Positions 4,897-41,546 of a stretch of 64,000 nucleotides of DNA are shown here, piece by piece. Within the stretch, counting starts at the first letter, position 1. Each line of letters opens with the position of its first letter. The translations under genes were made by a program, and so were the position numbers. The stretch comes from a virus, in IMG/VR virus record IMGVR_UViG_3300020583_000015, positions 1 through 64,000 of that record; one strand, given 5' to 3'. The notes below the pieces were generated by a model that had not been told where the DNA came from, ran no database searches, and worked only from the letters and a program-made list of their open reading frames with translations.

Positions 4897-4933
4897 AAGC
4901 CTAGAGGCAAGGCCAGCTGGTGAATGCCTCCAA

Positions 4934-4952: not shown

Positions 4953-4962
4953 ACAACTTTTT

Positions 4963-19332: not shown

Positions 19333-19998
19333 CTATGTGCCTGGAAGTTTCACAGCCAACAGCACACTGGTTGGGTTGATACCATTGCCGGTAACGTTCA
19401 TGCTGCACTTAGCGTACAGCTGAATTGTTGAGGTCCCAACAACCGTCCACACCCCACTTACAGTGTTTTCAAGAGAACTCACACCGACTGAAGTTTGTCC
19501 AAGCGACAGCGCAAATGGTCCGGCTTGGGTGACTGCTGTTGCGTTTGTGTAGAGTTGGATTGACACGAAGTTTGAGGGCTGAGCGGTTGTGAGTGCAAGA
19601 CTGATATCAGCCTCTGCAAACACAATCCAAGTCCCAGTTCCCAGCACCAGACTGTAGGAAGTAACCGGCGCGAAGCTAGTCGAAGTAACACTAAAAAAGC
19701 TACTGCTTGTTGCGCTGCTGATAGCTTGAGGTAGGATGGTGTTGGTTTGGGCAAAGAACGCAGCCCCACTCTTAACCTGACTCACAGCCTTATCGACATA
19801 TTGTTTGTTGACTGCATCAAGGGGTGAGACCGGTGCAGTCATGTTTACAACTCGGTGTTGGTTAATATCTAAGTCGTTGGCGAGGGTAGCTCCATTGATT
19901 TGGGAAGCCATCCGTCTCATTGCAACTGTCACCTGCTGACGGAGTTCGTCAATAGTTGCGACTGGCGGGATGGTTGGAGCGGTGACGTTGACTGACAA
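19333..19998 (-). CDS. tail fibre-like protein
   Basis: The motif DLDINQHRVVNMTAPVSPLD followed by AVNKQYVDKAV (about 43-73) is the common hinge of phage tail fibres. A Thr/Ser/Val-rich beta domain of about 140 residues follows, likely a trimeric tip. The TTG start has AAAGGA before it. At 221 residues it is short for a fibre and may attach to the large 1431-aa tail protein encoded just upstream. Confidence 0.65.
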   Translation of the reverse strand: MSVNVTAPTIPPVATIDELRQQVTVAMRRMASQINGATLANDLDINQHRVVNMTAPVSPLDAVNKQYVDKAVSQVKSGAAFFAQTNTILPQAISSATSSSFFSVTSTSFAPVTSYSLVLGTGTWIVFAEADISLALTTAQPSNFVSIQLYTNATAVTQAGPFALSLGQTSVGVSSLENTVSGVWTVVGTSTIQLYAKCSMNVTGNGINPTSVLLAVKLPGT

Positions 19999-25079: not shown

Positions 25080-27170
25080 CTACTTTAAGTAAAGCTTTCC
25101 GCCCAACACACGCCCCACTAACGGAACGTTTTGAGTGGAGGTGATTGTGTTACCGATTGTTGTGCCTGCGGTGAAGACCACAGCCCCATCGGTTGTGATG
25201 ATCTCTAGCCGTCGGCCTTCGTACAGGCCTGTGATTGTTCCGACACCTGTGGTGCCAGTCACCTTGAAAAGTGTGTAGCCTGGAGTAAGACTGATGCTTG
25301 AGGCACTCGCGACAGTCTGCGGCACATTGTCAGCACCGTTGTTGTTTTCAATTACCCCTGATGCTGGTGTTGCAGTGAAGTGAAACCCAGCAGTCGAATA
25401 GTTACCAAAGTTATTGCCAGTCACTGTCAGGTTTGGAATCGCTGCTGTGAATTCTATATCGTATGTTGGAGTTGCACCAAGACCTACATACCAGTTGTTG
25501 TTTGTAAAGGTCATGATGTTTCCAGCAGCGATCGTCATGCTTGCGATGCCGTTGGAGGTGTTAATGATGTTGTTGTTGGAGAACACCAGGCTTGTAGCTT
25601 GGCCGGTATCCCCAGCTCCGTCAAAAATCTTCGTGCTTCCAAGATTCACAAACCGACTGTTGGAGATCTGAAGACCCGCAACAGTCACCAGAAACCTAAA
25701 CACTGGGTTTGTGTTTGAGCCACTGTTAGAGATGCTGGAAGCGTCTATGTTGATGTTGGTAGGCAGGAGTGTGCCTCCAAACTTAAAGGCCGGGCCACCC
25801 GTCCAAGAATCAATCTGAAGATCCACCCAAGAAGTCAAATCAGAAAGACACCCTGTACAGCTCGGCACAGAATAAAGAATCTGGGCGCTAGTGACTGGTC
25901 CACCAATCAGCGTCCGGTTGAAGAACGCGCCGTTTGTGAAGCCAAGAAGAATTATTTCTCCGGGGGTGTAGCTAACAGTGTAGAGGCCTCCGGCTTGGGC
26001 GATGATGTAATTAAACAAATCACTTGTGCCTTGGAATCCAATAAGCGCAGCGTTGGCCGCGCCCTCCACGGAAATGTTATCCATGTAGATGGTGGAACAA
26101 TTGCCGAGGGTCGCCCCGTTAATGCAGCCGGTTGTGGCAGAAGTTGTGCCAAGGGTGTTGACTCCATTCCAGTTGTGACGAAGCCAGAGGTTTGTAAGAT
26201 AGACTGCAGACGACCCATACACTCCAATCGTGTCACCATTAGAGGGAAGCGTACTGTAGCCGTTTACTCGGTAAACGCCAAAGTCCTTTAGTGTGACGTT
26301 GTTTAGGCCGTTGATGGTAATTACATTACCGCTATTGAAGTCAGCCTGAATAAAGCTTACGCCCTCACCAAGCCCAAGAAGTGAACTGCTGCTGAATGGG
26401 ATTGTAAGGTTTGCTTTAGTATGAGTGATGCCTGCTGGCAATACACAAGACCCAAGCGTGCCTCCAGACTCAAGGCACTCAAAGATTCCACCTGATCCAC
26501 TAGTAAGTGTCCAACTTCCACTGTGGCTAAAGGTAGGAGTAAAGATGACTGTGCCAGTTCCGATTGAAGCACAAGTACCGCCTTGAATCAGCACCGCTTC
26601 GGCCGTCCCGACTCCATTCGATACATACAAATAATGCCCAGTATCGCTACCGTTGACGCCTGTTGGACAGGGGTTCATTGTGACTGTTGCTCCAACTCCG
26701 CCTGTCAGTGTGCCGCCTGGGGTTTGGGCGGGGAAGTTGTAGATCGAGGCTGTGAACGGGCTGGTTGTGAGGATGTTTGTTTCGATTGCTTTGATTTCAG
26801 CAGCAGCTTGATTGTGATAGCCTGCGACAATAAAGAAGTTGACAGCAGTTCCGTTAGAGTGAGAGGCAGCAGCCGTGCCATCAAAACCCCTTCCGTTAGG
26901 ACATATCCCAAACGAAGTAGAGGTCTTGGTGCATGCCAAAAGTATCTCACTATCAATACTAAGTGCAGTAGGAACTAAGATGCCTGCAGTCGTAACGACA
27001 TTGATTGTTGTGTCGCCGCCTGCTACCGACGCGCTAAGGTTTGTAATGACGTTGTTGGAGGCAACCATCAGGTCTGTATCGGTTGCGGCCCGTCCAGGAA
27101 ACACAGCGGTCTTGGGGTTCTGGGCAAATGCAGCCCCCACCAACATCAGCGCTAATAGTAGTTTTTTCAT
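25080..27170 (-). CDS. secreted fibre/spike-like protein with signal peptide
   Basis: The ATG at 27170 (after AAAGGAC) gives 696 residues starting MKKLLLALMLVGAAFAQ, a Sec signal peptide. Residues about 20-125 form a module (TDTDLMVASN, IDSEILLAC, CPNGRGFDGT, AAAEIKAIE) shared with the 1027-aa protein at 38463. The rest is rich in Gly, Ser, Thr, Asn and Ile with strand-turn periodicity (FSNNNIINTSNGI), suggesting a right-handed beta helix as in tailspikes. A short beta domain closes it. Confidence 0.65.
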   Translation of the reverse strand: MKKLLLALMLVGAAFAQNPKTAVFPGRAATDTDLMVASNNVITNLSASVAGGDTTINVVTTAGILVPTALSIDSEILLACTKTSTSFGICPNGRGFDGTAAASHSNGTAVNFFIVAGYHNQAAAEIKAIETNILTTSPFTASIYNFPAQTPGGTLTGGVGATVTMNPCPTGVNGSDTGHYLYVSNGVGTAEAVLIQGGTCASIGTGTVIFTPTFSHSGSWTLTSGSGGIFECLESGGTLGSCVLPAGITHTKANLTIPFSSSSLLGLGEGVSFIQADFNSGNVITINGLNNVTLKDFGVYRVNGYSTLPSNGDTIGVYGSSAVYLTNLWLRHNWNGVNTLGTTSATTGCINGATLGNCSTIYMDNISVEGAANAALIGFQGTSDLFNYIIAQAGGLYTVSYTPGEIILLGFTNGAFFNRTLIGGPVTSAQILYSVPSCTGCLSDLTSWVDLQIDSWTGGPAFKFGGTLLPTNINIDASSISNSGSNTNPVFRFLVTVAGLQISNSRFVNLGSTKIFDGAGDTGQATSLVFSNNNIINTSNGIASMTIAAGNIMTFTNNNWYVGLGATPTYDIEFTAAIPNLTVTGNNFGNYSTAGFHFTATPASGVIENNNGADNVPQTVASASSISLTPGYTLFKVTGTTGVGTITGLYEGRRLEIITTDGAVVFTAGTTIGNTITSTQNVPLVGRVLGGKLYLK

Positions 27171-27171
27171 C

Positions 27172-27336
27172 TTAGTCCTTTGCGAGCAACAGCCCAATCA
27201 ACGCAATCACCGCTAACACATTATCAGGGGAAGCAAAAAAGTGCGAGGGGTGTGTCGCCAGCAGCGTCAGCCCTGTGATACCAGCAATCGAAGTGACACG
27301 ATTCTTAAGGATTCGGTCGAGAATATTTTTGATCAT
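27172..27336 (-). CDS. 54-aa holin-like membrane protein
   Basis: The ATG overlaps the stop of the 280-aa adaptor (ATGA) and the TAA ends 2 nt before the next ATG. Two hydrophobic segments, about 16-27 (SIAGITGLTLLA) and 40-51 (VLAVIALIGLLL), flank a short turn with HPSHFFASPDN. The start MIKNILDRILKNR is basic. Size and layout fit a small class II holin, though the endolysin candidate is 20 kb away in the same unit. Confidence 0.6.
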   Translation of the reverse strand: MIKNILDRILKNRVTSIAGITGLTLLATHPSHFFASPDNVLAVIALIGLLLAKD

Positions 27337-28175
27337 GGGATTAGCGGGGTTTTTGGATTGAGGATGTTGCCTTCATAGTTGTTGCCGAATCCACCAAGGT
27401 TGACTGGCTTCAGATGGGGTGCCCGATCACTAAAGATGTTTGCCTTCAGCGCGTGGTAACGAATACACTGCGCAAGGAACTTTTGCTTTCGCTTCATTGC
27501 CTTCGCGATATCCTGGTTAGGACCAGCACGAAGATAAGCACGATAAGTGCAGTAGTTATTGACACTGTATTTTGTCCAGGCAGGCACAGCCATAAGGTCT
27601 GTGTCAGCAATCAGGTTTAGGACCTTCGGATATTCAAATACCGCTGTGCCAGTATTGATAGGAGGCGGATAGAGGCTACATCGGGTTGAATCATCCTGGT
27701 AGACAATCCGGGGCTCATACATATCAAAGACGCTACGCCACTGATGACGCAGAATGTCAAGCTCTTCAATGCTGCGTCCCACAAGCCTCCGACTGTAGGG
27801 TTGAGTTGGGCTACTCCAATACACCGCATCCAGCCTCATCATGTTTGGGTCGATTGCAGCTAACGCGATAGTTGATGTGCCTGAGCCGAGTGTGACTGTC
27901 GCTGTGCCCCACACAAACTCAAACCGCTCTTGAAGTTCATCTTGCCAGTCCTGGATGTAGTTGTTGAGTTCTGTGTCTGTCCACCAACGTCCGGTTGTGG
28001 TAGAGGTGGTGGTGACGTAGATGCCTGTGTCAAGCAACTCCCTCCGCACCATATTCCGAAGCGTCACAAGATTAAACGGATAGTTAACTGTTTGACATCC
28101 ACCAACACCACCGTCATCAAAAAGCGGTGCGTCAAAAACACTAGAATCAAAGATTCCTGTGGGTTGGGTGGACAT
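27333..28175 (-). CDS. head-tail connector/adaptor
   Basis: The 280-residue protein has the adaptor pattern NLVTLRNMVRRELLDTG, WWTDTELNNYIQDWQDELQERF, then beta strands and VYWSSPTQPY, and a C-terminal helix with AKAMKRKQKFLAQCIRYHALK. This resembles gp6/gp11-type adaptors. A free segment of 56 nt precedes it. Its partner at 24297 shares the same helical start and may be a paralogue. Confidence 0.6.
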   Translation of the reverse strand: MSTQPTGIFDSSVFDAPLFDDGGVGGCQTVNYPFNLVTLRNMVRRELLDTGIYVTTTSTTTGRWWTDTELNNYIQDWQDELQERFEFVWGTATVTLGSGTSTIALAAIDPNMMRLDAVYWSSPTQPYSRRLVGRSIEELDILRHQWRSVFDMYEPRIVYQDDSTRCSLYPPPINTGTAVFEYPKVLNLIADTDLMAVPAWTKYSVNNYCTYRAYLRAGPNQDIAKAMKRKQKFLAQCIRYHALKANIFSDRAPHLKPVNLGGFGNNYEGNILNPKTPLIP

Positions 28176-28230
28176 GGCTAGACAAATCCAATTATAACAA
28201 ACTTGGCTAGCGGGGCGGGCTTAGGACGGC

Positions 28231-29730
28231 TTAGATAAGTTGGGTTGAGAAATGTCGCCCCATGACTTCTTCAAGTCGGGTGATGAGACGTTCGCCTTGA
28301 ATTGCACCCATCGCACACCGGGGGCCGCTTGCAACTACAACTCCTTCGGGATTCAGGATCTGTGTACAAGGACAACTCTCAGGTGTGTAGTGGAGCTGAT
28401 GACACGGATAGCATGGCGCAAGCTCCACGTCAGGCGCAAGGCAATAGTCGTTTTTCCAGTTTGCGCAAAGATTCTGGTGGGTGCTGTGGCTTAGCAGCGG
28501 GATCTTTGGCGTGTCAAAACATCCCGCTGCGTTGATCACTACACTCTCCACCCCCACCACACACTGCACAAACTTCGTCAGCGCTAGAGTATGTCGTAGC
28601 GTTTGGGCCCCCGCCCGGGGAATGAGCTGGGGGTGTTGGAACTCCATGCAATTAGCTCGGGCGTCTCCGACGGTAATGATTCGGGCTTTGGGGTTTCGGT
28701 CAAGGAACTCTGTGACAACTGGTTGGAAGATCCCATAAACTTTATGGTAGCTACTACCATTGAGCGCCCAGAGGATGTTGTAAGAGCCTCCAAACTGCTT
28801 GAGAAAGTCTTTCGCGGCTCGCTCTTCTGCAGGGCTGAAATACAACTCTCCGCGCGATCCAACAACGTCTGAGTACCCTCCGAGTCGGAGAGTGAAATCA
28901 TAATAATTGTGGCTTCCGCATTGGGCGCGACGCCACTCGCTTGTGGTGTAGAACTCCCTACGGCCTTCGACTTTGAGAAGCGAGCCTTCGCAGCTTTCGC
29001 TGAGGTTGATGTATTTGTCATAGTGTGGTCTCCAAAAATCCCAGTACTCACTAAGATCGATGTTTGGGATTGCGTCCTTTTCCTGCAACAGGAGGTTATC
29101 TACAAACGGGTTGTACTCCACAACCGGAGCGCTGTAGTTGGTGATGTTGAGGGTGACGTGGTAGCCATCCTCGTGAAGCCTTCGAAGGAGTGGTGTGAGG
29201 ATAATCATATCCCCAAGCGCACCATATCGGCACACGCACGCGCGAGGGCGAACATCAGCTGAAGGTTTGACTTCTATGCCTTTGGGCCCGTTCTTCTTTT
29301 TGTAGACTTGAACAAAATATCCCTCCTCGTGTTCAAGCTCCAACACCTTACGCCAGCTGCCTTTTGTAGCGATTCGCTCTTGCATGGTGGTGGGTGTTAG
29401 GATCGAGTCAGTCTTTTGAAGACTAATCAGATAGCCTCCAACCTTCAGCTTACTGACCGCCTCCGCTAGGTAGCCTGAGGGGTTGTCCTGCAGAAACAGC
29501 CGGTCTCCTACAAACACATAGTCAAAATAATTCTGAGCAAACGCCGCTAGATCCGCTGCGCACACACTGATTTTTGGGTGGGGGGTGCTGTCTGCGTAAG
29601 CAGCAAACACATTGAGGGCTGTTGCGTTAGTGGGGAAGATCTCCTGGTTAGCGGTCGCTACTAGACCCTTTCCCCTCAAATAACAAACTGACGCGAAACG
29701 TGCCCATTTAGAGACATTTCCGAGCGCCAT
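28231..29730 (-). CDS. degenerate methyltransferase + GT9 heptosyltransferase-like fusion
   Basis: Residues 1-146 follow a class I methyltransferase: CYLRGKGL, FDYVFVGDRLFLQD and AVSKLKVGGYLISLQ. The SAM-binding glycine motif expected after RGKGL is replaced by VATANQ, so this half may be inactive. Residues 160-490 match GT9 (ADP-heptose:LPS heptosyltransferase): CRYGALGDMIILTPLLRRLH, YNPFVDNLL, VVGVESVVINAAGCFDTPKI. A Cys cluster (CYPCHQLH, CPCTQI) near 430-455 may bind zinc. ADP-heptose synthase genes lie upstream in the same unit. Confidence 0.75.
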   Translation of the reverse strand: MALGNVSKWARFASVCYLRGKGLVATANQEIFPTNATALNVFAAYADSTPHPKISVCAADLAAFAQNYFDYVFVGDRLFLQDNPSGYLAEAVSKLKVGGYLISLQKTDSILTPTTMQERIATKGSWRKVLELEHEEGYFVQVYKKKNGPKGIEVKPSADVRPRACVCRYGALGDMIILTPLLRRLHEDGYHVTLNITNYSAPVVEYNPFVDNLLLQEKDAIPNIDLSEYWDFWRPHYDKYINLSESCEGSLLKVEGRREFYTTSEWRRAQCGSHNYYDFTLRLGGYSDVVGSRGELYFSPAEERAAKDFLKQFGGSYNILWALNGSSYHKVYGIFQPVVTEFLDRNPKARIITVGDARANCMEFQHPQLIPRAGAQTLRHTLALTKFVQCVVGVESVVINAAGCFDTPKIPLLSHSTHQNLCANWKNDYCLAPDVELAPCYPCHQLHYTPESCPCTQILNPEGVVVASGPRCAMGAIQGERLITRLEEVMGRHFSTQLI

Positions 29731-29736
29731 TGAATG

Positions 29737-30192
29737 TTAACCGTTCTCTTCGAATGCCTCGTCAGCTGCGGTTTCGTAGTCACGTTTGATGGTGACATTA
29801 AAGTGTCCGCCTTCTTTGACACGCCGAGATTTGCCTGCGTGAGGTTTCATACAGGCGTCCAGGTGGTTTGAGTGGAATGGGAGTTGCTTGTCACAGATCT
29901 CACAGCGGAAGTCCACCGCCTCAAGACCCGCCTCTGCGAGCTGATCCCAAAGCTTCACAGGCTTATCGCTTCGCCGAAGGCTCAGCATAATTCCGCCTCC
30001 ACAAGCTGCAGCATGTCGCGCGATTGCTTCTGCGCTGAGCGTCAGCCTGGTGTGGCAGGACGGATCTACTTTGTGGTAGGGAGGGTAGGCCTGGCAAAGA
30101 ATCTCAGTCGGATAGAAATTCTTCAGTGCTTCCCATTTTGTTCGGCTCCGCTGGGGAGTCTGAGGTGTGTTGGTTTGAGTTGGTGCGGGCAT
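29737..30192 (-). CDS. hypothetical protein with possible Zn site
   Basis: The 151 residues include CEICDKQLPFHSNHLDAC (about 94-111), a plausible CCHC zinc site, and a basic segment HAGKSRRVKEGG. The N-terminus is polar and Pro-rich. It stands between a hairpin leader and the GT9 fusion, 6 nt apart. No family is recognised. Confidence 0.5.
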   Translation of the reverse strand: MPAPTQTNTPQTPQRSRTKWEALKNFYPTEILCQAYPPYHKVDPSCHTRLTLSAEAIARHAAACGGGIMLSLRRSDKPVKLWDQLAEAGLEAVDFRCEICDKQLPFHSNHLDACMKPHAGKSRRVKEGGHFNVTIKRDYETAADEAFEENG

Positions 30193-30217
30193 AATCGTCT
30201 AGAAAGCGTTTGTTACA

Positions 30218-30267
30218 CCACAGGGGGAGCTAGGAGAGGAGGTCAGGTGGGACTAACTCCCCTGTGG
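30218..30267 (-). promoter_or_regulatory. stem-loop in intergenic leader
   Basis: CTCCCCTGTGG (30257-30267) pairs with CCACAGGGGGAG (30218-30229), with one bulged G and a 27-nt loop. It fills the gap between the 57-aa secreted protein and the 151-aa gene. Reading leftwards its far arm ends 25 nt before the ATG at 30192, as in the plus-strand leaders. No T run follows, so it is not a classical terminator. Confidence 0.6.
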
Positions 30268-30298
30268 CAGATTGGCGCGACCCTAAGGCCGCAAACCT

Positions 30299-30472
30299 TT
30301 AACTACGACATCCTGTTGGCCAACAGCTTGGCGGCGCAGGAGGCCTTGGGGCAGGAGGAAGAGGTTGGGGTTCAGTCCAACATTCCGGAGGACAATACGG
30401 ATCAGGCGGCCACATTGGACCATCCGCAAAAGCCCCCGCTGCAAGCAGCCCTACCCACAACAACCGACGCAT
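30299..30472 (-). CDS. 57-aa secreted Cys/Pro-rich microprotein
   Basis: A clear Sec signal peptide MRRLLWVGLLAAGAFA is followed by about 41 residues with five Cys, many Pro and five Trp or Tyr (PPDPYCPPECW, CWPTGC). The start makes a TAATG overlap with the upstream decoration-like gene. A disulfide-linked extracellular peptide encoded among capsid genes is unusual. No family is recognised. Confidence 0.65.
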   Translation of the reverse strand: MRRLLWVGLLAAGAFADGPMWPPDPYCPPECWTEPQPLPPAPRPPAPPSCWPTGCRS

Positions 30473-30897
30473 TAGGTTGGCTGCTCCTGCTCTTCGAAGT
30501 AGATGTTGTAAGAACCAAATACTCCGTTAGCGCTGGACGTGCCAGTGCCAACCACGTTGACTGTCGGACCAGCGTTCGCGCTGAAAGTCGCGCTCGCAAG
30601 TGTCATTACACCTGTCAACACCTGCCCAGCAGTACAGCTGGCAAGCGCAACAGTAGCGAAGGTTGAAGTGCCATTCAGAAAGACAGCTGCAAGCGTTCCG
30701 TTAGTGGAGTTAGCCGCAACTGTACAAATCATCCTGACGTTGTTGATGACGGTCTTACGGAAGTACTGCGGAAGCTGACACACCGCGCTGGATGTGACAA
30801 CCGCTCCGTTAGAGCCGTAAGTGCCAGTTCCAAGATTCGTGCCAAAGGCGATCGCCTGGCAAGGCCGGTCGTAAAACTTTTGATCAGAATAAGCCAT
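30472..30897 (-). CDS. capsid decoration-like protein
   Basis: The 141 residues are Thr/Ala/Val/Gly-rich beta sequence (VAANSTNGTLAAVFLNGTSTFATVALA) with few charges. The gene follows the major capsid gene, where head decoration or stabilising proteins are usual. GAACAAAT with an upstream AAGGAG precedes the ATG. No close family is recognised, so the role is inferred from place and composition. Confidence 0.55.
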   Translation of the reverse strand: MAYSDQKFYDRPCQAIAFGTNLGTGTYGSNGAVVTSSAVCQLPQYFRKTVINNVRMICTVAANSTNGTLAAVFLNGTSTFATVALASCTAGQVLTGVMTLASATFSANAGPTVNVVGTGTSSANGVFGSYNIYFEEQEQPT

Positions 30898-30908
30898 ATT
30901 TGTTCTCC

Positions 30909-31856
30909 TTAGGCACTCGTCACGTACACGATGTGTTGCTCAGAGTCGACTGTGAAATTCCATACAATCTTGAACCCAAGCAACGCATACCATGCAATTC
31001 CAAGATCACGACCGTAGTCAAGGGAGACTTTGATTCGGATCTCCTCGGGCACGCTTACTGCCTCGTACACATTGTCAGAACCAAAGAACACGCCCTGACC
31101 ATAGCTGGAGGCATTACCGATGGTGTTGCTGAAGAAACCAGTCTCTTCAACAAACCTCGTGTGGTAGTAGGTCCCAAGCTCACCGTTGAAGATGTTGGGA
31201 GCAAACGTCACAGTGTATTTGCTGACGTCAACCCAACCCCCTGCAGCAGTGTCGCTGAACATTCCGCTTAAGAAGGTAACACTCCCTATGCAGGCGTAGG
31301 TGTTACCGATGCGCGGAACCAGCTTTTTCTTCATGAAGTCCACAATCTGACGGGTGTTGCTACCTGTCAGGTTGGACGTAGCAACCGCTGTCGCAGTGCC
31401 GTTGGTTGTGAAGATTGTGTTGCCAGACGCGCTCAGAACCGCCACAAACTCTGTGGCTGTGAAAGCCGTGCCAGCCGCTGACTCCAGCACTTTCACCTGG
31501 TCATCCTTCAGCTTACGTTCTGTGACAGGTTCAATCTCAAACTGTCCCAACGTCTGAAGTTTCCCAGTAAAAGGCACGCTGTTACCGTACTCTGTAATGG
31601 AGCCAGTCCCTTGGTTCGTTACAAAGTTGGTCTCAGGAATGGTGTTTGTTTCGACGAGGGTTCCACCCTGAGTCGCAACGTTACCAGCTTTATCAAACAG
31701 CCAAGTGTCGCCTCGGCCTTTACCAACAGCTTCTCGCACATCAAGAAACTGCCGGAAACGGAACTCTGGCTGAGCCACAAACCGGATCTTTTGGGAAAGA
31801 TACGGCGCGGTCCAGTTTCCGCCCAGAGTACTGATACTATATACTTGTCCAGGCAT
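30909..31856 (-). CDS. major capsid protein (N4 gp56-like)
   Basis: The 315 residues fit the N4 gp56 family of HK97-fold capsid proteins. They show TLVETNTIPE (66-75), YGNSVPFTGKL, a long helix to DDQVKVLESAAG and GSVTFLSGMFSD. The diagnostic NIFNGELGTYYHTRFVEETG lies at 221-240, with the final strands after it. A scaffold gene directly upstream and a decoration-like gene downstream support the call. Confidence 0.85.
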   Translation of the reverse strand: MPGQVYSISTLGGNWTAPYLSQKIRFVAQPEFRFRQFLDVREAVGKGRGDTWLFDKAGNVATQGGTLVETNTIPETNFVTNQGTGSITEYGNSVPFTGKLQTLGQFEIEPVTERKLKDDQVKVLESAAGTAFTATEFVAVLSASGNTIFTTNGTATAVATSNLTGSNTRQIVDFMKKKLVPRIGNTYACIGSVTFLSGMFSDTAAGGWVDVSKYTVTFAPNIFNGELGTYYHTRFVEETGFFSNTIGNASSYGQGVFFGSDNVYEAVSVPEEIRIKVSLDYGRDLGIAWYALLGFKIVWNFTVDSEQHIVYVTSA

Positions 31857-31880
31857 TGTTCGGTACCTTCGTTAGTGTCG

Positions 31881-32792
31881 TTAGGTTGCTGGAACAAACA
31901 TGCCATGCATCTTTTCCGCAGCCGTTTTACGCTTGGTAATATAGTCCATTGCGGACTCAAGCGGAGGGTTCTGCGGTGTGGATGTTCGATCGACATTCGG
32001 AGAGTTGGGTGTCATTGGTGTGGAACTCAACACTTCGGTTTTGATCGTCAGGCCTGCTTGCTTTCCAGCCGCACGAATAGACTGGACAATTTTTCGTGCA
32101 TCTTCAGTAGCTTCGTTGACGCTGGTTTTGTAGAACTTCACGTAATCGGAGGTGTTCTTGATTTTACCGCTGTCATGGGCTACTTGAATTTTTGCCGCAG
32201 CCTTTGAGGCAATAAGTTCTTCCAAAGGCAGAAGCTCAGCATTCTTGCTGCGAAGGTCGGCTACAAAGTCAGAAATTTCTCGCTCAACTCTCATGGACTC
32301 AACAGCCTCAGACCGCGCCTGACTAGAGGCACGTCGGGCTGCTTCATTGGCTTGAAGATCAAACGCTTCTTTGATCTTGCCTTCACGAATGAGGTTAAGC
32401 CATTGGGTCTCAACAGGATCTGTCGATCCCGGCAATTCAGGAGCCTTCGGAGGCTCAGTGAGCTTTGAGAGGAGCTCTGTCATCCTTCCAAGGGAGGCTT
32501 CCACAGAAGCCAAACGGTCCTCAGTCGGAGGTGTGGCGGAGGTTACAACAACATCGCCAGCAGGAGGTGCAGCAGGGTCCGCGTTCGCTGCGGCCTGATT
32601 ATCTGGCTGATCCTCGGTGGACGTTGGAGTCCCTCCATAAAGTTCCTGGTACTTAGCAGCAATCGCTGCACGGTCAGTCACCTGAGAGGGGTTGGCGTTG
32701 TTAGGAGGAGCAGTCTGGCCAGAATCGATCTGGGACGTGGGTGTTGCGGGCTGACCCGTAGTATCGGGGTTAACGATGGGAGATGTTGCCAT
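31881..32792 (-). CDS. scaffolding protein
   Basis: The 303 residues are disordered and Pro/Ala-rich for the first 85, then highly charged and helical (EAVESMRVEREISDFVADLR), ending with a short basic helix ITKRKTAAEKMHGMF. This is the classic composition of phage scaffolds, whose C-terminal basic helix binds coat protein. It lies immediately upstream of the capsid gene, and a TAGGGTGTG element precedes its start. Confidence 0.75.
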   Translation of the reverse strand: MATSPIVNPDTTGQPATPTSQIDSGQTAPPNNANPSQVTDRAAIAAKYQELYGGTPTSTEDQPDNQAAANADPAAPPAGDVVVTSATPPTEDRLASVEASLGRMTELLSKLTEPPKAPELPGSTDPVETQWLNLIREGKIKEAFDLQANEAARRASSQARSEAVESMRVEREISDFVADLRSKNAELLPLEELIASKAAAKIQVAHDSGKIKNTSDYVKFYKTSVNEATEDARKIVQSIRAAGKQAGLTIKTEVLSSTPMTPNSPNVDRTSTPQNPPLESAMDYITKRKTAAEKMHGMFVPAT

Positions 32793-32815
32793 AAAAGTAA
32801 GTACCTACAGAATAC

Positions 32816-32826
32816 CACACCCTAGG
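32816..32826 (-). promoter_or_regulatory. TAGGGTGTG element before scaffold/capsid genes
   Basis: On the minus strand it reads CCTAGGGTGTG, then GTATTCTGTAGGTAC. It sits 24 nt before the scaffold ATG and overlaps the end of the previous gene. It closely matches the element at 19302 beyond the core. It could be a late promoter or activator site for the two most abundant head proteins. Confidence 0.55.
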
Positions 32827-33142
32827 AGCCGGGTGCTGTTATATTTACGCCGAAAGACTTAAGAGCATCAAGGCTCCTGCCGCCCCTCCGAAGGATATCC
32901 TCCACCAACTCCACCACAAACGCCAAGCCATAAGCCCGGCCTGCGAGCTGAGCGACTGTCACAACCTGACCATGAGCGTCAGTTGGGGCGTTGCCAAGGG
33001 TCGCCTGAACAAGCTGGCCTTCAAAGGTAGCTTTCGCTTTGAGAAGTGCTGGCTTCAGGGTTTCTGTCCAAGCGATGTGGTCTAGCAGGTTCTGGAGATC
33101 TTCTGCCCTGGCGACGTTTTCTACTGCGGAGTTGACATTCAT
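32822..33142 (-). CDS. hypothetical head-region protein
   Basis: The 106 residues are helical (AEDLQNLLDHIAWTETLKPALLKAK), then GRAYGLAFVVELVEDILRRGG. It stands between the lyase-like secreted protein and the scaffold. It could be a small head completion or chaperone protein; no family is recognised. Confidence 0.55.
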   Translation of the reverse strand: MNVNSAVENVARAEDLQNLLDHIAWTETLKPALLKAKATFEGQLVQATLGNAPTDAHGQVVTVAQLAGRAYGLAFVVELVEDILRRGGRSLDALKSFGVNITAPGS

Positions 33143-33151
33143 AAGAGTGCG

Positions 33152-36100
33152 TTAGTTTGTGTCGGATTCAGCTACACTGTTAGCAAGCACATTACCGCTG
33201 GAGTCCTTGATGCGGTAGCTCCAGGGGGTGGTGCCGGTTGGGGTGTAGACGGTGATGGGGGCACAAGCCGGACTACAGGCGCTAGAGGCCATGAAGTTAG
33301 TGGCTGAGCCATATCGAAGCTCAAGCGTCGCAGCCGAAGGCGGGGTGTTAGCCCCGTTCCAGCCACTAATTGTTCGGGTTTTGAAGGTCCCACAGCTATT
33401 GGTGAAGGTGATGACATGTGGGTTTGGTTGAAGACCTCCCTCGTGATAGACTGTGTAGACGTTGGCGCTAGTCTTGATGATCGGTTGATCTGGACACCAA
33501 GTGCCAATAAGCCCACTCAGGTCGATTGTGCGGGTGGAGGGGGTCATGCCGCTGATAGTGGCAACGATTGTGGAGCTGCTGACTTGAGCCAACTCCCCTG
33601 GACCACCACTAAGTTTAAGGCCGTTGAAGGTCTGAGTTGAGCTGTCAAACACATCCAGCACAACCAACCCGCCACTTGTGGTGTAGGTGTAGAAGCTGCC
33701 GCCTGCCGCAGGCACACACTCAGTTGAGCTAACCGGACTGGTTGTTACGACCTGAACTCCACAAGCTGGGTTTGTGATGGTTCGGCTCGGAACGGAGCTC
33801 TTAAGATACGGCCCAAACACTGTAGTGAAGCTTCCGCTGTCGTTGACCTTCAGGATTGCCACGCGCTCTCGGAAACAAGGTATCACACTTCCGCTAGTGT
33901 AGGAACCGCTGAGTCCGCTAAAGTCTCCGTTGTTAGTTTTGAAAGTCACAACATTCCCGCTGACTGCGCTGACGCTAGGTCCAACATTCCCAACCCCGTT
34001 ACAGCTTGCATTGGAGTTGACATTCCCGCTTCCAACAAACCCGCTTGTTGAGGCTTGATCCCCGACAACGTAGTTGTGGGAGTTTGCAGCAAAGGTGATT
34101 TGGAGGTGGGTTGCGTCAGCAGCCACCGCGTTGGTGATGCCGCCTCCAGACTGGGTAAGGGTCTGCGCGGCTTTGTATTGGCTATCAGTAATAGAGTCTT
34201 CACACATATGACCCCACCCTGCCACCGCATATTGGGCTCCGCTTGTCCCACGAACAATCCAGATGTCACTGTTGATGCCGTTACCCGCGAGGTTCGGCAT
34301 GTTTTGGCCCTTCACGTTGAACGCCTGAATACCGCTTCCAAGACCTGTAGCAGTGCCCGCACTTGGAAACACGCTAGGAGGAGCTGCTGGACCTTCGCTT
34401 ACGCACTGGGTTGTGTGGGTTGCGTCAGTCACAGGGGTTACGTTCCCGCTAGGTGTGGTGACGCTTGTACTGTCATACAGCAGGTTGAATTGGATTGTTT
34501 TGCTTGCGCCAGCGTTTGTTCCGGAAGGAAAAGTGTCATACACACCAAACAGCGGGAACGCTGGGTTTCCGTTTGTTAGGACCACACACCTTTTCCAAAC
34601 GGTTGTGTCGGAGTTGGTGTAGGTTTGGCAACTGTAGGAGCTGTAAGTGAAGTTCAACACTTCTGTCTGGGCGGTTGCTCCAACAGCCGCGAAGTTTGTG
34701 GAAGAGCTGCCCCCGGCTGTCTGGACTGGGTCGTACATACTGGTTGGGGCTCCGTACCAAGGATACGAGGCGTTTTGGGTGTTGGAGGTGAATTCACTGC
34801 TGTAGATGAGGGCGCTGTGGCAAATCCGTCCTGGGCAATCAGGCTGATAGATATTGCTGCTGAGGTCCACAACCAGCGGAACATTGTGGAAGTAGCTAAC
34901 AAACGAACCTCGGTCAGCCTGCGCATGGTCGCTATAGAACTCCCCATTCAAAACCATGTACCAATTCTCGTGGGTTGAGTTCTGATTAAAGCGTCCTGCT
35001 GTATAGTAGCCTGGGGCGTTGTAGGTTGAGAGGGTTGGCATCCCAGGGTTTGTGAGGGTTGTGTCGATCGAGATGATTGGTGGCCCAAAGAAAGAATTGA
35101 AGTTCAGAAGCGTTGGGGTATTTTGATTGTACCAACTTCCCATGTCAGTATTAGTCCCGTAGAGACTTGCAAGGAACCCTGGTTGCTGAACAGCGGTGTA
35201 GGTGGCTTCGCCAATTGCAGGCAGCTTCCGGACATTCCCCCACCGTGGGTCAGGCGGAGCAATATAGTTTGAAAGGAAGTTGTAGTATAGCGGTAGCGTT
35301 GGGTAGCTACTGGAGTTGAATCCCGCAAGATTCTGATTCAGTGCAAGCAGATTCAGGAATGTTTGGTCGTTTGTGCCAAGGTAAGAAGCGCTTGAAGCGC
35401 CAGTCCCGGACCCGTTGATTGTTGCTTGCACAACCTGTTGGTTGGTAGTGAGGGCATTCGCGGTGTATTTACCGATGTAGGGATGGGACGGAAAGAACGT
35501 CGCGGCCTTCGAAACCAGACTGTTGTAACCGTTGGTCTGATTAAAGGTTCCGCCTTGATCCCCGCACACACAAACCCCGTTTGGAAACAGCGGTGTGAAG
35601 TTCGGATCAACAATCAACGATCCAATCCAGCCCGCGTAGTTTTTGAAGGAGGTCTTTTGGGTACCTGAAATGAAGGATGTTTGGAGCGCGTAAGCTGCGT
35701 TGGCGATGTGTTGACCAGCGAAGTTTAGCAGCTCAGACCCAAAGCAATTCCCGTCGTAGATACCGTCGTACTCGGCAATTCCAACTCCACAATCCTGGAC
35801 TTTTGGAATGAGGCTTGACAAAATCGCGTCAAGACATCCAGAAGCTTGACTTACAAAACAAGTCAGGATGTTTGCGCTGTAGCTGTCTCCGGTTAGGCTG
35901 ACTGTGCTGTCTACAATTGTTTTAAAGCCTGCAACATTGTTTTTGTAGTTGTTCGCGATTGTTGCAAGATGCGCGGTTGGGATATACGGGGACTGGAACC
36001 CTCCAGCCGGGTCTGGGAAGTTCAGCAGGTTCCAACTGTATTGTTCTGTAAGGCTAATGCCAGCAGTGTGGTTTTGTTCAAGACTCACTGCGTTGGCGGT

Positions 36101-38461
36101 TTGGGGGTTCGCAACTGTGATACCAGCCTTTGTGCCACTCCAGATCCCAAACTGACGATGGTTGTTTGGAGCAAAGGTTGGGATGTTCGCGGCACAATTC
36201 GCAATCACAGGAGCGGTGTTAGTTTGCTGATAGCATGGCATACTAACAAAATAAATCGCCGCACCCTGGGCACTTGTTGAAAATAGGTTGTTTGAGGTTT
36301 GCCACCCCATAACATCCGCCACGGCATTCAACTGGACTCCAGCTTTACCTGTGTACATTGCAACTGCTGGTGCCCCACTAGACGCAGATGCATTAAAAAG
36401 CTGTTGCCAATTCCCGCCTGTGTTGGAGGAATTCCAAACACTCAGCGGATCGCGGCTTCCGCCTCCGCACCCAGCGGTAACAATTGTCCCAGTGTAGCTG
36501 ATGGTTTCTGTGTAGGTTGTAAGGCGACTTTGGTTGTTAGAGGTATTTGGAATTATGTAGCTAGCGCTGTTGGCGTTGTAAGTGCCGCCTGTGGTGTTGG
36601 CGTTCACACTCAGTGTGTTGCTGTCAACCACTGTGTAGGAGAGTCCACTTGCGTTGAGGGCTGTGATTGCGCCTGTGCCTGTTGCACCGCTAACTGTGAG
36701 GGCTCCTCCAACACCATTCAAGCTGTGGTTTGGAGCTGTCACAAGCGTTGGGTTTCCGACTGTGACGGCTGTGATTGTTTGGGGTCCCCACACCCCACAC
36801 CCATTGTTTGGAAGCCCGTCAGTGCGGCGTTGGATGGTGTCAGGCGGCGAAGCTCCCCACGTCCCATACACATCCCACATATGCCCGATGTTCATTCCAC
36901 CATCATCGATGTCAACCAAAAAACTACTTTGGTTAGCATACATTGTGAAAGTCATGGTGTATTTGGCGGAAGTGGTGGCGACAGAACCAGCTAGGTTACT
37001 AATGCCAGACTTGGTGTATACAGGCCTGTTGAGGGTGTAGGTTGTTTGGATGGTAGTTTTGCCGGGGCCAAAATCTATATAAAACAACTGATAGTTTGTG
37101 GCCATCATCAACTTCACCGGCAGGCTGTTGCTGCCGTTCATGTTATCAAGTGCGCTACCAGAGGTTGAGCCGGAGGTCTCGCCCTGCCAAAGCCGACCAC
37201 CTGTCGCAACCCAATTACCGTTTGTAAGACGGAAGCCCTGAAACGCATCGACACTCAAGTCAGCGTTGATGATGGTGAGATTGGGGTTGTTGGTCGTGTT
37301 GTAGGTGTCGTTTGAAAGCCCGCTTTGACCGGTGACTGTGAAGGTGTTGGTTGTGACACTTGCGAGTGTGAAGACCCCACACGGTCCAAAGTTGCTATTT
37401 GCGTAGGAGGTCGCACAGCCACTGATGGAGATTGTATTGCCGCCACTCAGTCCATGCCCCGCAACTGTACAAACAATTGTTTGGGTTGGGGCACTACCAC
37501 TAATTACACAAGACGGATTGCCGTTTGAGGCATTGAAGGTTTTGGTGGGGTTGGTTTGTTGAGCAACTCGGATTGCCACAAGCCCGTTGTCGCAGGTTAT
37601 ATAAGACGCACTGGTTGTACAAACAATCGGATTGGTGAAGGTTGCAGTTGGGGTTGTGAGACTCTGGAGCGTGTGCGTCCAATCAAAGATAACTTTGTTG
37701 AGGGCGTTGTTGATATTGTCAAGACCAGTAATTGCCGAGCCCCCGACTGTCGCGGATATCTGAAACGTTCCTGCCCCAACATTCAGGTTTGTGACGTAGT
37801 AGTTTGTGTCGGCAGTCAGCTGCGAGGGGATTGTTCCCTCAAACTGAATCGGATCTCGGTTCGCTAGGTAGGTTGCGACAGTTGGAGCGGTAAAGACATT
37901 CGACGCGACTTGGAAGCCTGTGTAGGTGAGGCTTGGTAACGACACCGCACAATTGGTTGTGGTGAGGGCACTTCCACCGGGAGTCGCGCTAAACGACAGC
38001 GAAAGATATGGTGAGCCTCCGCTTGGCACCAGCGTGTAGTTCTTAACAAAGTAATCGTCTGTATCTGTTAGGCCGCAAGGCGCGCTACTGGATGGCACAC
38101 TGAGGCGTACAAGTTGGTTGACTGGAAAGCTATATTCGTAGCCTGGCCACTGGATACTTGTTGAGCTTGGGGTGATTGGAGTGCCAGCAGCCTGATAGGT
38201 TGTGTAGACAGTTGAGGCCGGAAGATGACAAGGAAACGCAATATAACCATTTCGAAGGAGCTGAAAGGGTTCCTGATCAACTCCGTTTGGCGCAAGCAGT
38301 GCTGTTGTAGAAAGCGTCAGCTTTGCGCCTGTGTAGGGAACTTCGCACATTTGGTTTGTGTGAAACACCCCTACCAACTCCTTCAACTCAAACGTCGCAA
38401 GAGTTGATTGGGCAAACGTCAGTGAAGTTAGGCCAAACAACAATCCTAGAAGTTTTTTCAT
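33152..38461 (-). CDS. giant secreted beta-rich protein with lyase-like core
   Basis: The ATG at 38461 gives 1769 residues beginning MKKLLGLLFGLTSLTFAQ, a Sec signal peptide. The first ~700 residues are Thr/Ser/Asn-rich beta domains. A helical middle (about 860-1050) leads to HENWYMVLNGEFYSDH then AQADRGSFVSYFHNVPLVVD (about 1165-1200). That resembles heparinase II/III-type lyases, where His/Asp residues precede a GSF strand. Beta sandwiches end it. It is likely a depolymerase fibre; the lyase call rests on motif resemblance only. Confidence 0.55.
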   Translation of the reverse strand: MKKLLGLLFGLTSLTFAQSTLATFELKELVGVFHTNQMCEVPYTGAKLTLSTTALLAPNGVDQEPFQLLRNGYIAFPCHLPASTVYTTYQAAGTPITPSSTSIQWPGYEYSFPVNQLVRLSVPSSSAPCGLTDTDDYFVKNYTLVPSGGSPYLSLSFSATPGGSALTTTNCAVSLPSLTYTGFQVASNVFTAPTVATYLANRDPIQFEGTIPSQLTADTNYYVTNLNVGAGTFQISATVGGSAITGLDNINNALNKVIFDWTHTLQSLTTPTATFTNPIVCTTSASYITCDNGLVAIRVAQQTNPTKTFNASNGNPSCVISGSAPTQTIVCTVAGHGLSGGNTISISGCATSYANSNFGPCGVFTLASVTTNTFTVTGQSGLSNDTYNTTNNPNLTIINADLSVDAFQGFRLTNGNWVATGGRLWQGETSGSTSGSALDNMNGSNSLPVKLMMATNYQLFYIDFGPGKTTIQTTYTLNRPVYTKSGISNLAGSVATTSAKYTMTFTMYANQSSFLVDIDDGGMNIGHMWDVYGTWGASPPDTIQRRTDGLPNNGCGVWGPQTITAVTVGNPTLVTAPNHSLNGVGGALTVSGATGTGAITALNASGLSYTVVDSNTLSVNANTTGGTYNANSASYIIPNTSNNQSRLTTYTETISYTGTIVTAGCGGGSRDPLSVWNSSNTGGNWQQLFNASASSGAPAVAMYTGKAGVQLNAVADVMGWQTSNNLFSTSAQGAAIYFVSMPCYQQTNTAPVIANCAANIPTFAPNNHRQFGIWSGTKAGITVANPQTANAVSLEQNHTAGISLTEQYSWNLLNFPDPAGGFQSPYIPTAHLATIANNYKNNVAGFKTIVDSTVSLTGDSYSANILTCFVSQASGCLDAILSSLIPKVQDCGVGIAEYDGIYDGNCFGSELLNFAGQHIANAAYALQTSFISGTQKTSFKNYAGWIGSLIVDPNFTPLFPNGVCVCGDQGGTFNQTNGYNSLVSKAATFFPSHPYIGKYTANALTTNQQVVQATINGSGTGASSASYLGTNDQTFLNLLALNQNLAGFNSSSYPTLPLYYNFLSNYIAPPDPRWGNVRKLPAIGEATYTAVQQPGFLASLYGTNTDMGSWYNQNTPTLLNFNSFFGPPIISIDTTLTNPGMPTLSTYNAPGYYTAGRFNQNSTHENWYMVLNGEFYSDHAQADRGSFVSYFHNVPLVVDLSSNIYQPDCPGRICHSALIYSSEFTSNTQNASYPWYGAPTSMYDPVQTAGGSSSTNFAAVGATAQTEVLNFTYSSYSCQTYTNSDTTVWKRCVVLTNGNPAFPLFGVYDTFPSGTNAGASKTIQFNLLYDSTSVTTPSGNVTPVTDATHTTQCVSEGPAAPPSVFPSAGTATGLGSGIQAFNVKGQNMPNLAGNGINSDIWIVRGTSGAQYAVAGWGHMCEDSITDSQYKAAQTLTQSGGGITNAVAADATHLQITFAANSHNYVVGDQASTSGFVGSGNVNSNASCNGVGNVGPSVSAVSGNVVTFKTNNGDFSGLSGSYTSGSVIPCFRERVAILKVNDSGSFTTVFGPYLKSSVPSRTITNPACGVQVVTTSPVSSTECVPAAGGSFYTYTTSGGLVVLDVFDSSTQTFNGLKLSGGPGELAQVSSSTIVATISGMTPSTRTIDLSGLIGTWCPDQPIIKTSANVYTVYHEGGLQPNPHVITFTNSCGTFKTRTISGWNGANTPPSAATLELRYGSATNFMASSACSPACAPITVYTPTGTTPWSYRIKDSSGNVLANSVAESDTN

Positions 38462-38462
38462 C

Positions 38463-41400
38463 TTAGAGCGCTTCAACCTTGATATGCAACTCATACACCA
38501 TTGTTGTACCGGTTGAACTGTAGCCAAAGGCGTATGTCACGCCAACCCCAGTCTTAGCATAAATCACCGCGCTTCCAGTGAGGGTAGCTTGGGTGGTGTT
38601 GGTGGTGTTGCCGGTCCCGACGGATAAGGCTGTTCCGGCTTGGTTGTCTTCAGGGAGCGTGAATGCAGTTTGAGCAACGCTATCAGTGCCGTCTGTGTAG
38701 GCTAGCACGAGGCCTGTTGTGCCCCCAAGAATTGAGCTTGTCCCCGCTGTTGTGACCTTCGCGTAGTAGCTAACTCGGTAGAGTTGGGTGGCGGCTGGAG
38801 TCCAAAGAGCAGTAGCGCTAATTGCTGCTGATTGAGTTGTGAGGTCGATTGAGGCAATCGAGCCAACAAGTTTGTTGGTAGTGGATAGAACTGGTGTGTA
38901 GCCGATTGTGTTGTTGATGTTGTATTTGATGCAAGCCAGTCCCGGTCCCGCAAGACAAGTCCCAGAGGTTGTGATGGCAGGGTGTGTGCCAGCAGCTGCA
39001 TCAAACCATCCAGCCACAGCATCAGTCAGCGCAGCAGGCCCCGCGCCTGTCAGAGACGGATTCCTGAAACGTATATAATCAAGCCGTGTAACTGTTTGGG
39101 CTGTTGCGGCATCCAAATGCGGAATCAAATCAAGCCCGCCAGCCATGCTATCAGCAACAGTCGCGGTGATAGTTTGTTTTGCCATCAGCGTCAATGCGGC
39201 GCTGCTAATAGCTGAAGGATTGTACCCACCTTTACAGTCTGCTCCAATACAAATAGACTGCATGCTGTTGGAGGTATTAGCTGGGGTTTCGCTAAAGAAC
39301 TGCAGTCCTGTATTACCGGATGAGTCTTGAATTGAGGTGCGGGCGTTAGAAGGCGTAGCACCTCCACTCGCGTCTCCCTGTAAAACTAGGTTTGTGTTGG
39401 ATTCAAGTCCTGCAAAGTTTGTGTTGTTTGCAGCATTCATAATAAAAACAGTATCACCGGAATTAACCCATGTAGCGCGGAAGACCTGATTTCCATTAGG
39501 CCCAATGAACTTAAATGGGGTAGCGTTGGAGCCCCACTTTCCGCAAAGCACATCTTGGCTATCGCCGCCAGTGTAGGAGCTAGTGCCGAAGTTGAACACA
39601 CAAGAAGTAGAATTAGATGGAGGAGTTGTCGAAAGAGCCAGAAGGCCAGCAGCTGGACTGCTAGAGTTGGCAAGTGCTTGGAAGGTTGTGCTATTTAGTC
39701 GGAGTTGAATTTCAGACCCTGAACCCGCAGGGCTCGCCCCACCCCCAATCGCTGCCCAGGTATTAGTGGCAGTACAACCTTTAAAGGATGTGCTAGTGGA
39801 GTTGAACTCAAACTGCCCGGCTGTACAGGTCCCAGGGTCGCTACTGTGGACTGGGGCAAGAAAATCTGCTGCGCTGAAGCTTTGGAGGCCGGTTGTCCAG
39901 GTGTTGGCGGCGTTTGTACAAACCCCATTCACAACATCAGTACACTGGATGTTGCCAAAGGCCGCAGCCCCACTCACCCACGCAAGGTACTGGCCGTTAG
40001 TGTGGGTGCTTATTGAGGAGGTCGCAAAGTTACTACCCGCCAACAGTATATCCCCTGAGGTTGCAGCACTACCGCTAATCCCATAGTAGGGCTTTATCCA
40101 CTGGCTACTGTTGTTGCGCATTGCGATTGTGTAGTCAGATTGATCGCACGCAAGATCCCCAACACCAAGGTTCACAGTGAAGAGTGTTGAGCACACAAGC
40201 CGAAGTCCGGCCTGACCTGTGACCGCCCCACCCGCCACAGACCACTTCCCAAGGATTGTTTGGTTCCCGCTCAGGACTGCTGTGTAGGTTGAGTCAACTG
40301 TAAAGTTAGTGCCGCTGAGGGTGATGCCGTTTGAGGCGGTGTAGGAGGTTGCGTTTGAGGCAAGACTCAGGCCATTTGAGGCTGGGGTGATTGTAATACC
40401 GCTGCCCGCCACCAATGGCGCTGTCGCAAGATAGTTTGTGCCGTCACTCCACACCTGCGCCCATTGGTATTGCTGGAGGGTGATGTTGGAGGTGCCACCG
40501 TTGATGGTTAGGGTGTTGCGCGCAATCGTCAGCGCGGAAGCATTGAGGTTGAGGATTGTTGCGCACCAAGGAGCTGCAGGCGCAGGCGCTGGGAGCGTGG
40601 CAGTTAGGCTTGCACCATTCTCAGTAACAAGCTTGTTGTTGTCTCCACTCACAAGCGGATAGCTACTGGTTTGGGCATTCACGCCACCTCCCGCACATCC
40701 AATTGACCCGGTACTACCAAGATTCACAGTCACGCCATTGTAGGTGAGGCTTGGGTTGGCGAGGTTTGCGTTTGGAATGCCAGTCGGCAGATCCCCAGGC
40801 TGAATCGCATCATACCCAGGGGCAGCGGTTGAGCCGCTGTTGTTACCCCAATACTTGTGGGCTCCTACTGTCGCAAGACTTATTGTGACTGTGCCACTGC
40901 TATTGATGTTGTTGATGAGGGTTCCATCACCACTGAAGGTTGTGACGCCAGACCCGCTACCTGACGGAACTGCCCACGCGCCATCAGCCCTCAGAAAGTT
41001 CGCTGTACCGCCACCAGAGCCAGGAACCGTGCCTTGGAGGGTGTTTGTAAAGAGGCTAACTTTTGTGCCAGCTAACGATGTGATCCAGGTCGGGTTTGCA
41101 TAGGAGCCAGTTGGTAAAATGATGTTTGCGCCATTCACACCAAGGAACTGCTCAATCGCCTCAATCTCTAGCGATCTGGTGTTTACATACCAAGCGATGA
41201 TGTTGGATCGCACGCTAGCGCCGTTGTTGTGGTTGGAGGCGGAGGTGCCCCCAAACCCACGTCCAGACGCACAAACCACAAACTGTGTGCCACTTGCGTT
41301 ACTACAAAGCTGCACATGCTCATTGTCAATTGTAACGACTGTTGGGAACGCAACAAAACTTGAAGTCGAAGCAACATTCACAACCAGGTCACTGATGCCC

Positions 41401-41546
41401 ATGTTGCTAGTCAGGGTTGTTGCGGCTTGGTCAGACGCCTTTAGCAGCTGGCTGTCTGTAACAATCGCGCTTGGGAATTGCGCGGTTTGAGCCAGTAGCG
41501 CGGATGTTGCTACCGCAAAAACAAAAAGCTTTCTTATAAGGTTCAT
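38463..41546 (-). CDS. secreted fibre protein with signal peptide
   Basis: The 1027 residues begin MNLIRKLFVFAVATSALLAQ, a Sec signal peptide, then the same ~110-residue module as the 696-aa fibre (VTDSQLLKAS, TIDNEHVQLC, CASGRGFGGT, SLEIEAIEQFLG). Long Ser/Thr/Gly/Asn-rich beta regions follow, typical of trimeric fibres, with a C-terminal beta domain that may be the tip. ATGA overlap with the portal gene couples its expression to head genes. Confidence 0.65.
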   Translation of the reverse strand: MNLIRKLFVFAVATSALLAQTAQFPSAIVTDSQLLKASDQAATTLTSNMGISDLVVNVASTSSFVAFPTVVTIDNEHVQLCSNASGTQFVVCASGRGFGGTSASNHNNGASVRSNIIAWYVNTRSLEIEAIEQFLGVNGANIILPTGSYANPTWITSLAGTKVSLFTNTLQGTVPGSGGGTANFLRADGAWAVPSGSGSGVTTFSGDGTLINNINSSGTVTISLATVGAHKYWGNNSGSTAAPGYDAIQPGDLPTGIPNANLANPSLTYNGVTVNLGSTGSIGCAGGGVNAQTSSYPLVSGDNNKLVTENGASLTATLPAPAPAAPWCATILNLNASALTIARNTLTINGGTSNITLQQYQWAQVWSDGTNYLATAPLVAGSGITITPASNGLSLASNATSYTASNGITLSGTNFTVDSTYTAVLSGNQTILGKWSVAGGAVTGQAGLRLVCSTLFTVNLGVGDLACDQSDYTIAMRNNSSQWIKPYYGISGSAATSGDILLAGSNFATSSISTHTNGQYLAWVSGAAAFGNIQCTDVVNGVCTNAANTWTTGLQSFSAADFLAPVHSSDPGTCTAGQFEFNSTSTSFKGCTATNTWAAIGGGASPAGSGSEIQLRLNSTTFQALANSSSPAAGLLALSTTPPSNSTSCVFNFGTSSYTGGDSQDVLCGKWGSNATPFKFIGPNGNQVFRATWVNSGDTVFIMNAANNTNFAGLESNTNLVLQGDASGGATPSNARTSIQDSSGNTGLQFFSETPANTSNSMQSICIGADCKGGYNPSAISSAALTLMAKQTITATVADSMAGGLDLIPHLDAATAQTVTRLDYIRFRNPSLTGAGPAALTDAVAGWFDAAAGTHPAITTSGTCLAGPGLACIKYNINNTIGYTPVLSTTNKLVGSIASIDLTTQSAAISATALWTPAATQLYRVSYYAKVTTAGTSSILGGTTGLVLAYTDGTDSVAQTAFTLPEDNQAGTALSVGTGNTTNTTQATLTGSAVIYAKTGVGVTYAFGYSSTGTTMVYELHIKVEAL

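Follow-up and report, generated by a model that had tools for sequence, protein, structure and literature searches.

Secretion leaders and paired cysteines suggest that fibres of several soil-type phages are finished outside the inner compartment of the cell

The virion operon and its genes

The window, i.e. the whole stretch of 64,000 nucleotides that was analysed, makes up most of a 69,667-base IMG/VR virus record. Its virion operon lies on the minus strand and runs from the portal gene through f3, f2, a gene for a 106-aa protein, the probable scaffold and the major head protein to a group of small genes, a sugar-enzyme-like gene, a connector-like gene, f1, the phrog_399 structural protein and the 1431-aa protein (Table 1; f1, f2 and f3 denote three large proteins that begin with a leader). 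A sequence-only reading of this DNA had placed the three among head and tail genes, and the portal, the head protein and the structural protein are indeed found around them, i.e. f1-f3 are members of the virion operon. The stop codon of the portal gene overlaps the ATG of f3 (ATGA), and the ATG of f2 is found one base past the stop of f3, so both the genes and the operon are those of a phage.

Table 1. Features of the virion operon and of the leader-bearing proteins in the window
Feature	Position	Strand	Remark
f1, 696-aa leader-bearing fibre/tailspike	25080..27170	-	mature length homologous to leaderless phage fibres
f1 Sec leader, MKKLLLALMLVGAAFA, predicted cut before Q	27123..27170	-	reading and home-made rule
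f1 N-terminal fibre domain (phrog_7578-like), hairpin cysteines C80 and C90	26772..27110	-	
f2, 1769-aa leader-bearing protein, 34 cysteines past the leader	33152..38461	-	no known family
f2 Sec leader, MKKLLGLLFGLTSLTFA, predicted cut before Q	38411..38461	-	reading and home-made rule
f3, 1027-aa leader-bearing fibre	38463..41546	-	ATG overlaps portal stop
f3 Sec leader, MNLIRKLFVFAVATSALLA, predicted cut before Q	41490..41546	-	reading and home-made rule
f3 N-terminal fibre domain, hairpin cysteines C81 and C92	41133..41486	-	AlphaFold2 model: paired strands, in register
Portal protein, immediately upstream of f3	41543..43909	-	phrog_332, phrog_1216
Scaffolding protein (probable)	31881..32792	-	position and composition only; no PHROG match
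Major head protein	30909..31856	-	phrog_1357, E 2.3e-19
Connector-like protein, upstream of f1	27333..28175	-	position only
Structural protein, downstream of f1	24297..25070	-	phrog_399, E 0.0011
1431-aa leaderless protein, probably tail	20002..24297	-	function by position; cysteine-poor control, 0.70%
Short leaderless tail fibre	19333..19998	-	tail-fibre PHROGs, best E 4.7e-4

Pfam gave no match with E values up to 1 for any of the three leader-bearing proteins, and neither a muralytic or lysin domain nor a catalytic family was recognised in them. They had been called fibre-like; the description holds for f1 and f3, which match tail-fibre families, but not in the same sense for f2. In Pfam, in PHROGs, among PDB sequences and in the fetched loci f2 gave nothing beyond chance level, and only its size, composition and position liken it to a fibre. 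Searches with the connector-like protein gave no above-chance family match and no hit among the fetched loci, and the 1431-aa protein has no family match in Pfam or PHROGs.

A few other genes should be mentioned. A 54-aa ORF at about 27174-27338 (minus strand) ends just ahead of f1; it has one or two hydrophobic segments and is possibly holin-like. The 499-aa protein at 28231-29730 (minus strand), within the virion operon, has a weak N-terminal methyltransferase match below the Pfam cut-off, and its remainder has, by reading only, the look of a GT9-type glycosyltransferase. The terminase large subunit appears to be divided into two parts, an ATPase and a nuclease (48025-48885 and 43926-44801, minus strand); both match terminase PHROGs, and a distance of about 3.2 kb that contains several genes separates them. 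Genes of sugar-nucleotide type adjoin the terminase (49418-50245, 47486-48001, 49084-49593 and 44780-45325, minus strand), with Pfam matches to a PfkB kinase, a cytidylyltransferase-like protein, a polysaccharide-synthesis C-terminal domain or cupin, and a TylF-like methyltransferase. By reading alone, the combination of a kinase with a cytidylyltransferase recalls heptose activation of the HldE type.

Leaders of the three large proteins

Signal peptides had been noted to begin at 27170, 38461 and 41546 and to end in AFAQ, TFAQ and LLAQ, and this is borne out: ATG starts and leaders are found there, with the predicted sites AFA-Q, TFA-Q and LLA-Q. By reading and by a home-made rule, each leader has a short basic n-region, a hydrophobic core and a small-x-small site followed by glutamine. 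There is no RR pair in any of the three, i.e. no twin-arginine (Tat) signal was found, and presumably they resemble the leaders of Acidobacteriota. The listed ORFs of f1 and f2 open further upstream, at TTG codons (27197 and 38527, respectively); the ATGs are the better starts.

The cut-off of the leader rule (3.5) was chosen after the scores of f1-f3 (4.9, 4.0 and 3.5) had been seen. With this cut-off the rule flags 3 of the 24 genes in the window that encode 250 aa or more, namely f1, f2 and f3, and none of the 250 shadow ORFs of the window (14 of 2952 in other loci). Among large genes, none of 102 was flagged in seven other phage genomes and none of 70 in the loci of leaderless relatives, as compared to 39 of 165 in the loci of leader-bearing relatives. 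Five further signal or lipoprotein leaders had also been claimed for the window; reading together with the rule recovered three small candidates rather than five. These leader-like proteins lie outside the virion operon (3850-4185, 5674-6000 and 11409-11699, plus strand) and the first one has a lipobox-like LGCGAC.

A shared N-terminal domain with and without leader

Directly behind their leaders, f1 and f3 share a domain (39% identical, phrog_7578). The relatives show this domain in two forms, either at the very start of a protein without a leader or immediately after a leader. Leaderless starts read M[AS]TPT[AP]VFP or MPNPNTAVFP (e.g. MATPTPVFP...), and the junction in the leader form reads ...AQ-(NPN)-TAxFP (e.g. 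...AQ-TAVFP...). The leader ends where the leaderless homologues begin, and cleavage would therefore restore an ordinary N-terminus. In the 20 members that were scanned, the domain matches phrog_7578 (19 members), a virion structural PHROG (11 members) and a tail protein PHROG (10 members), and three tail-fibre PHROGs match it in 8, 6 and 2 members, respectively; homology to tail-fibre families is thus found for f1 and f3.

The similarity of f1 to leaderless fibres is not confined to this domain, as its mature residues 5-680 align with residues 5-679 of the leaderless fibre of locus L073 (31.7% identity over 707 columns, E 1.6e-67). This fibre and the leader-bearing fibre of L059 both have a phrog_12985 gene on one side and a phrog_578 head-closure gene on the other; L073 has one gene more in this interval. 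The leader form of L122, which itself matches a tail-fibre PHROG, adjoins tail-fibre/tip-like and tape-measure genes. The neighbours of f1 in the window gave no hit in the related loci, so the slot equivalence of f1 itself is positional.

A tblastn search of 50,697 named phage records gave one record for f3, two for the domain of L067 (short, E 0.01), and none for the second domain of L002 described below or for the leaderless L073 fibre, hence neither the leader form nor the leaderless form is well represented among named phages. A single Streptomyces stretch in the bacterial genome collection matches the pattern of the first domain (pattern match only). In L018, L022 and L023, leaderless proteins starting with MKA[AT]PNL[ND]FT are found directly upstream of leader-bearing ones (1750-4008, 3125-5524 and 5755-7989, respectively). 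These are possible leaderless fibres; the one in L023 has no PHROG match.

A second family of leader-bearing proteins was noticed in L001 and L002, the relatives of f3 that were found first, each of which has large leader proteins with a domain that begins STTVSGTITD after the leader. A scan for this domain gave 36 viral loci; in the bacterial genome collection there were 76 pattern-matching stretches, none of which was confirmed. The domain is preceded by a leader in 51 of 51 copies by reading and in 49 of 49 by the rule (one duplicate locus dropped), and in all 32 non-redundant copies, which come from 24 contigs. A small residue plus glutamine is present at the junction in each of the 49.

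Cysteine pairing tied to the leader

In the first domain, a pair of cysteines located before GRGF (the hairpin pair) is present in 12 of 12 leader forms vs 0 of 19 leaderless forms when sequences are kept below 97% identity, the 40 domain instances being reduced to 31 by removal of near-copies. A wider scan covered at least 108 new loci, read as sets of 70 and 38. For the old loci and the set of 70, the domain had to be covered and the RGxxG[TS] motif present; at least 101 instances were kept, at least 93 after near-copies were removed. Among the matches listed, old and new loci taken together, the pair occurs in 12 of 13 leader forms, in none of 60 N-terminal leaderless forms and in none of 20 internal copies (Fisher 7e-13 for leader vs N-terminal leaderless forms among these matches, kinship uncorrected). 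L186, among the remaining 38 loci, has a further leader form with the pair. Paired cysteines, i.e. the signature of an oxidised compartment, are thus found in the leader forms with one exception, L122 (3-659, minus strand), where leader and domain are present without the hairpin pair and the partial sequence has two close cysteines further on. At the positions aligned with the ten cysteines of f1, six leaderless homologues have no cysteine and, conversely, the cysteines in NCLVSID and VTCANAH/VNCANAH of several leaderless forms are absent from f1.

The AlphaFold2 model of the f3 domain, built on a 20-sequence alignment (pLDDT >90 in this region), predicts strands at 57-66 and 69-77 that carry the hairpin cysteines at 62 and 73; from these positions the two cysteines are in register in the model, opposite each other on paired strands. 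Phage virion proteins rank first among the structural matches of the N-terminal domain (Z 8.6-10.7 in the top five rows), followed by many unrelated matches at Z about 7, and Foldseek gave no match to the domain at E <=0.001. The single-sequence AlphaFold2 model of the whole f1 is poor (mean pLDDT 35), so the idea that f1 contains a beta-helix comes from the sequence pattern only.

Cysteine totals were also compared. Among first-domain proteins the total is even in 12 of 12 leader forms vs 12 of 19 leaderless ones. When both leader families and f2 are included and proteins with at least two cysteines are counted, it is even in 38 of 42 leader proteins vs 92 of 150 others (at least 250 aa; Fisher 1.5e-4), and at <40% identity in 26 of 29 vs 50 of 91. 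The median cysteine content is 2.07% in leader proteins vs 0.75% in the others. The leaderless proteins of the largest set also lean towards even totals (p 0.0034), thus parity alone is weak. The 38 of 42 vs 92 of 150 comparison is the cleaner count; a relaxed rule missed the true leaders L001 8797, L002 8714 and L028 5913. It also took in some false leaders, namely the MASAVLRLF starts in L015, L018, L020 and L022, a similar one in L023, and L004 10142. Within the window, f1, f2 and f3 have 10, 34 and 16 cysteines, respectively, as compared to 2 in the portal, 1 in the head protein and none in the scaffold or in a 1115-aa protein; cysteine-rich leaderless proteins exist as well, e.g. the 499-aa protein with 16.

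In a domain tree calculated with the cysteines masked, the leader state changes three times (2-3 times in bootstraps). These are too few pairs for a test of independence, and a small number of shared events could explain the association. The link between leader and cysteines is thus supported by several lines of evidence but not by many independent gains.

Proposed route of the leader-bearing fibres

The sequence-only reading had left two options, namely that the proteins are exported to act outside before lysis or that the leader serves some other purpose. In homologous fibres, leader and paired cysteines occur together, which makes it very probable, as judged from the sequences, that f1-f3 are truly exported and fold oxidatively; no evidence was found for a job other than export. 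We propose that f1-f3 are tail fibres or tailspikes, an assignment that for f2 comes from position and size only. They would pass through Sec, be cleaved by signal peptidase I directly ahead of the glutamine, and fold with disulfides outside the cytoplasm, in the periplasm. The finished fibres would retain the N-terminal domain as a virion anchor and would attach via this domain once lysis mixes cytoplasm and periplasm, so that virions would be completed at or after lysis. A normal virion fibre that takes the Sec route and is put on the virion at lysis fits better than both of the earlier options. We lean slightly towards the whole chain, i.e. Sec export, disulfides outside the cytoplasm and joining to the virion at lysis, of which we infer the attachment step. 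The broader picture, in which unfinished particles fill in the cytoplasm and disulfide-locked fibres stay in the periplasm or at the cell surface until lysis unites them to complete the infectious particle, and in which such fibres arose when a Sec leader was added to an ordinary fibre anchor domain, paired cysteines being gained and unpaired ones lost, is in our judgement evenly balanced. Taken together, the data suggest that the fibres of several soil-type phages, with their secretion tag and paired cysteines, are finished outside the inner compartment of the cell.

The short leaderless fibre in the window means that the virion may do without the exported fibres, and a possible leaderless fibre gene is found just before the leader gene in L018, L022 and L023. 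One may thus speculate that the virion uses another, leaderless fibre and that f1-f3 are exported yet never join it, acting free or on the cell surface while the infection proceeds. The evidence for export and disulfides is equally compatible with such a role, and a bacterial glycan enzyme of tailspike fold that is exported by Tat is known, WceF (PMC7949094). However, the leader forms keep the N-terminal domain that is common to leaderless fibres and tail-fibre PHROGs, they occupy the same gene neighbourhood as leaderless fibres, and f1-f3 have no recognised catalytic family; we therefore consider free action rather doubtful. The same tentative standing applies to its conceivable examples, i.e. 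stripping of host polysaccharide for the spread of progeny, or covering or destroying receptors against superinfection and re-adsorption.

Proposed attachment of a cleaved fibre also has to be weighed against a leader that is no export signal at all, an uncleaved hydrophobic N-terminus that would serve assembly by anchoring the fibre to a membrane or the particle. Cleavage of the leader is predicted, and uncleaved signal-anchor segments are used by SAR endolysins (PMC6116005), but the small residue plus glutamine at all 49 second-domain junctions, the end of the leader where leaderless homologues start, and a cysteine pattern of the disulfide type make this anchor improbable. That the leaders are artefacts, i.e. 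hydrophobic starts that arose by chance, misplaced gene starts, genes of the host or an assembly error in the contig, is more improbable still. Although the window belongs to a metagenomic contig and some ORFs have alternative upstream starts, the start of f3 overlaps the portal gene, chance rates are low, dozens of contigs are involved, and the second domain has no confirmed copy in the bacterial genome collection.

If the proposed route via Sec and attachment at lysis is true, a two-compartment assembly route exists in a widespread set of uncultured phages, with receptor-binding proteins stabilised by disulfides and a possible control point at lysis. A leader together with an even cysteine count could then serve as a marker for such fibres in metagenomes, where proteins like f1-f3 have few or no family matches.

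Comparison with known systems

The virions of tailed phages are thought to assemble wholly in the cytoplasm. Tailspikes of the P22 type are made and folded there and have no leader, and they can be added to finished particles in vitro as the last step. No description of Sec-exported virion fibres was found in the literature searched, most subscription papers being outside its reach.

One similar case is a 1253-aa late protein of GenBank phage MW202444 (ctLpZ231), which like f1-f3 has a Sec-type leader, is very large and is encoded downstream of tail genes. It differs in that it is annotated as hypothetical, matches f3 over about 40 residues only, and is cysteine-poor (4 in 1253 aa), which counts against exported disulfide fibres. 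Exported endolysins are known, e.g. Lys44 of Oenococcus phage fOg44 and the SAR endolysins (PMC6116005); these are, like f1-f3, late phage proteins on the Sec route of the host, but they are lysis enzymes, whereas f1-f3 resemble fibres and show no recognised lysin domain. WceF of Pantoea stewartii (PMC7949094) shares with f1-f3 the combination of a tailspike-like protein and an export signal; it is, however, the product of a bacterial gene and carries a Tat signal, while f1-f3 are encoded in a phage virion operon and their leaders lack twin arginines. The closest relatives are the leaderless phrog_7578 fibres of L073, L069, L080, L052 and L078. They have the same N-terminal domain and f1 is similar to them over most or all of its mature length, but they differ in being without the leader, the hairpin pair, or cysteines at the ten positions of f1.
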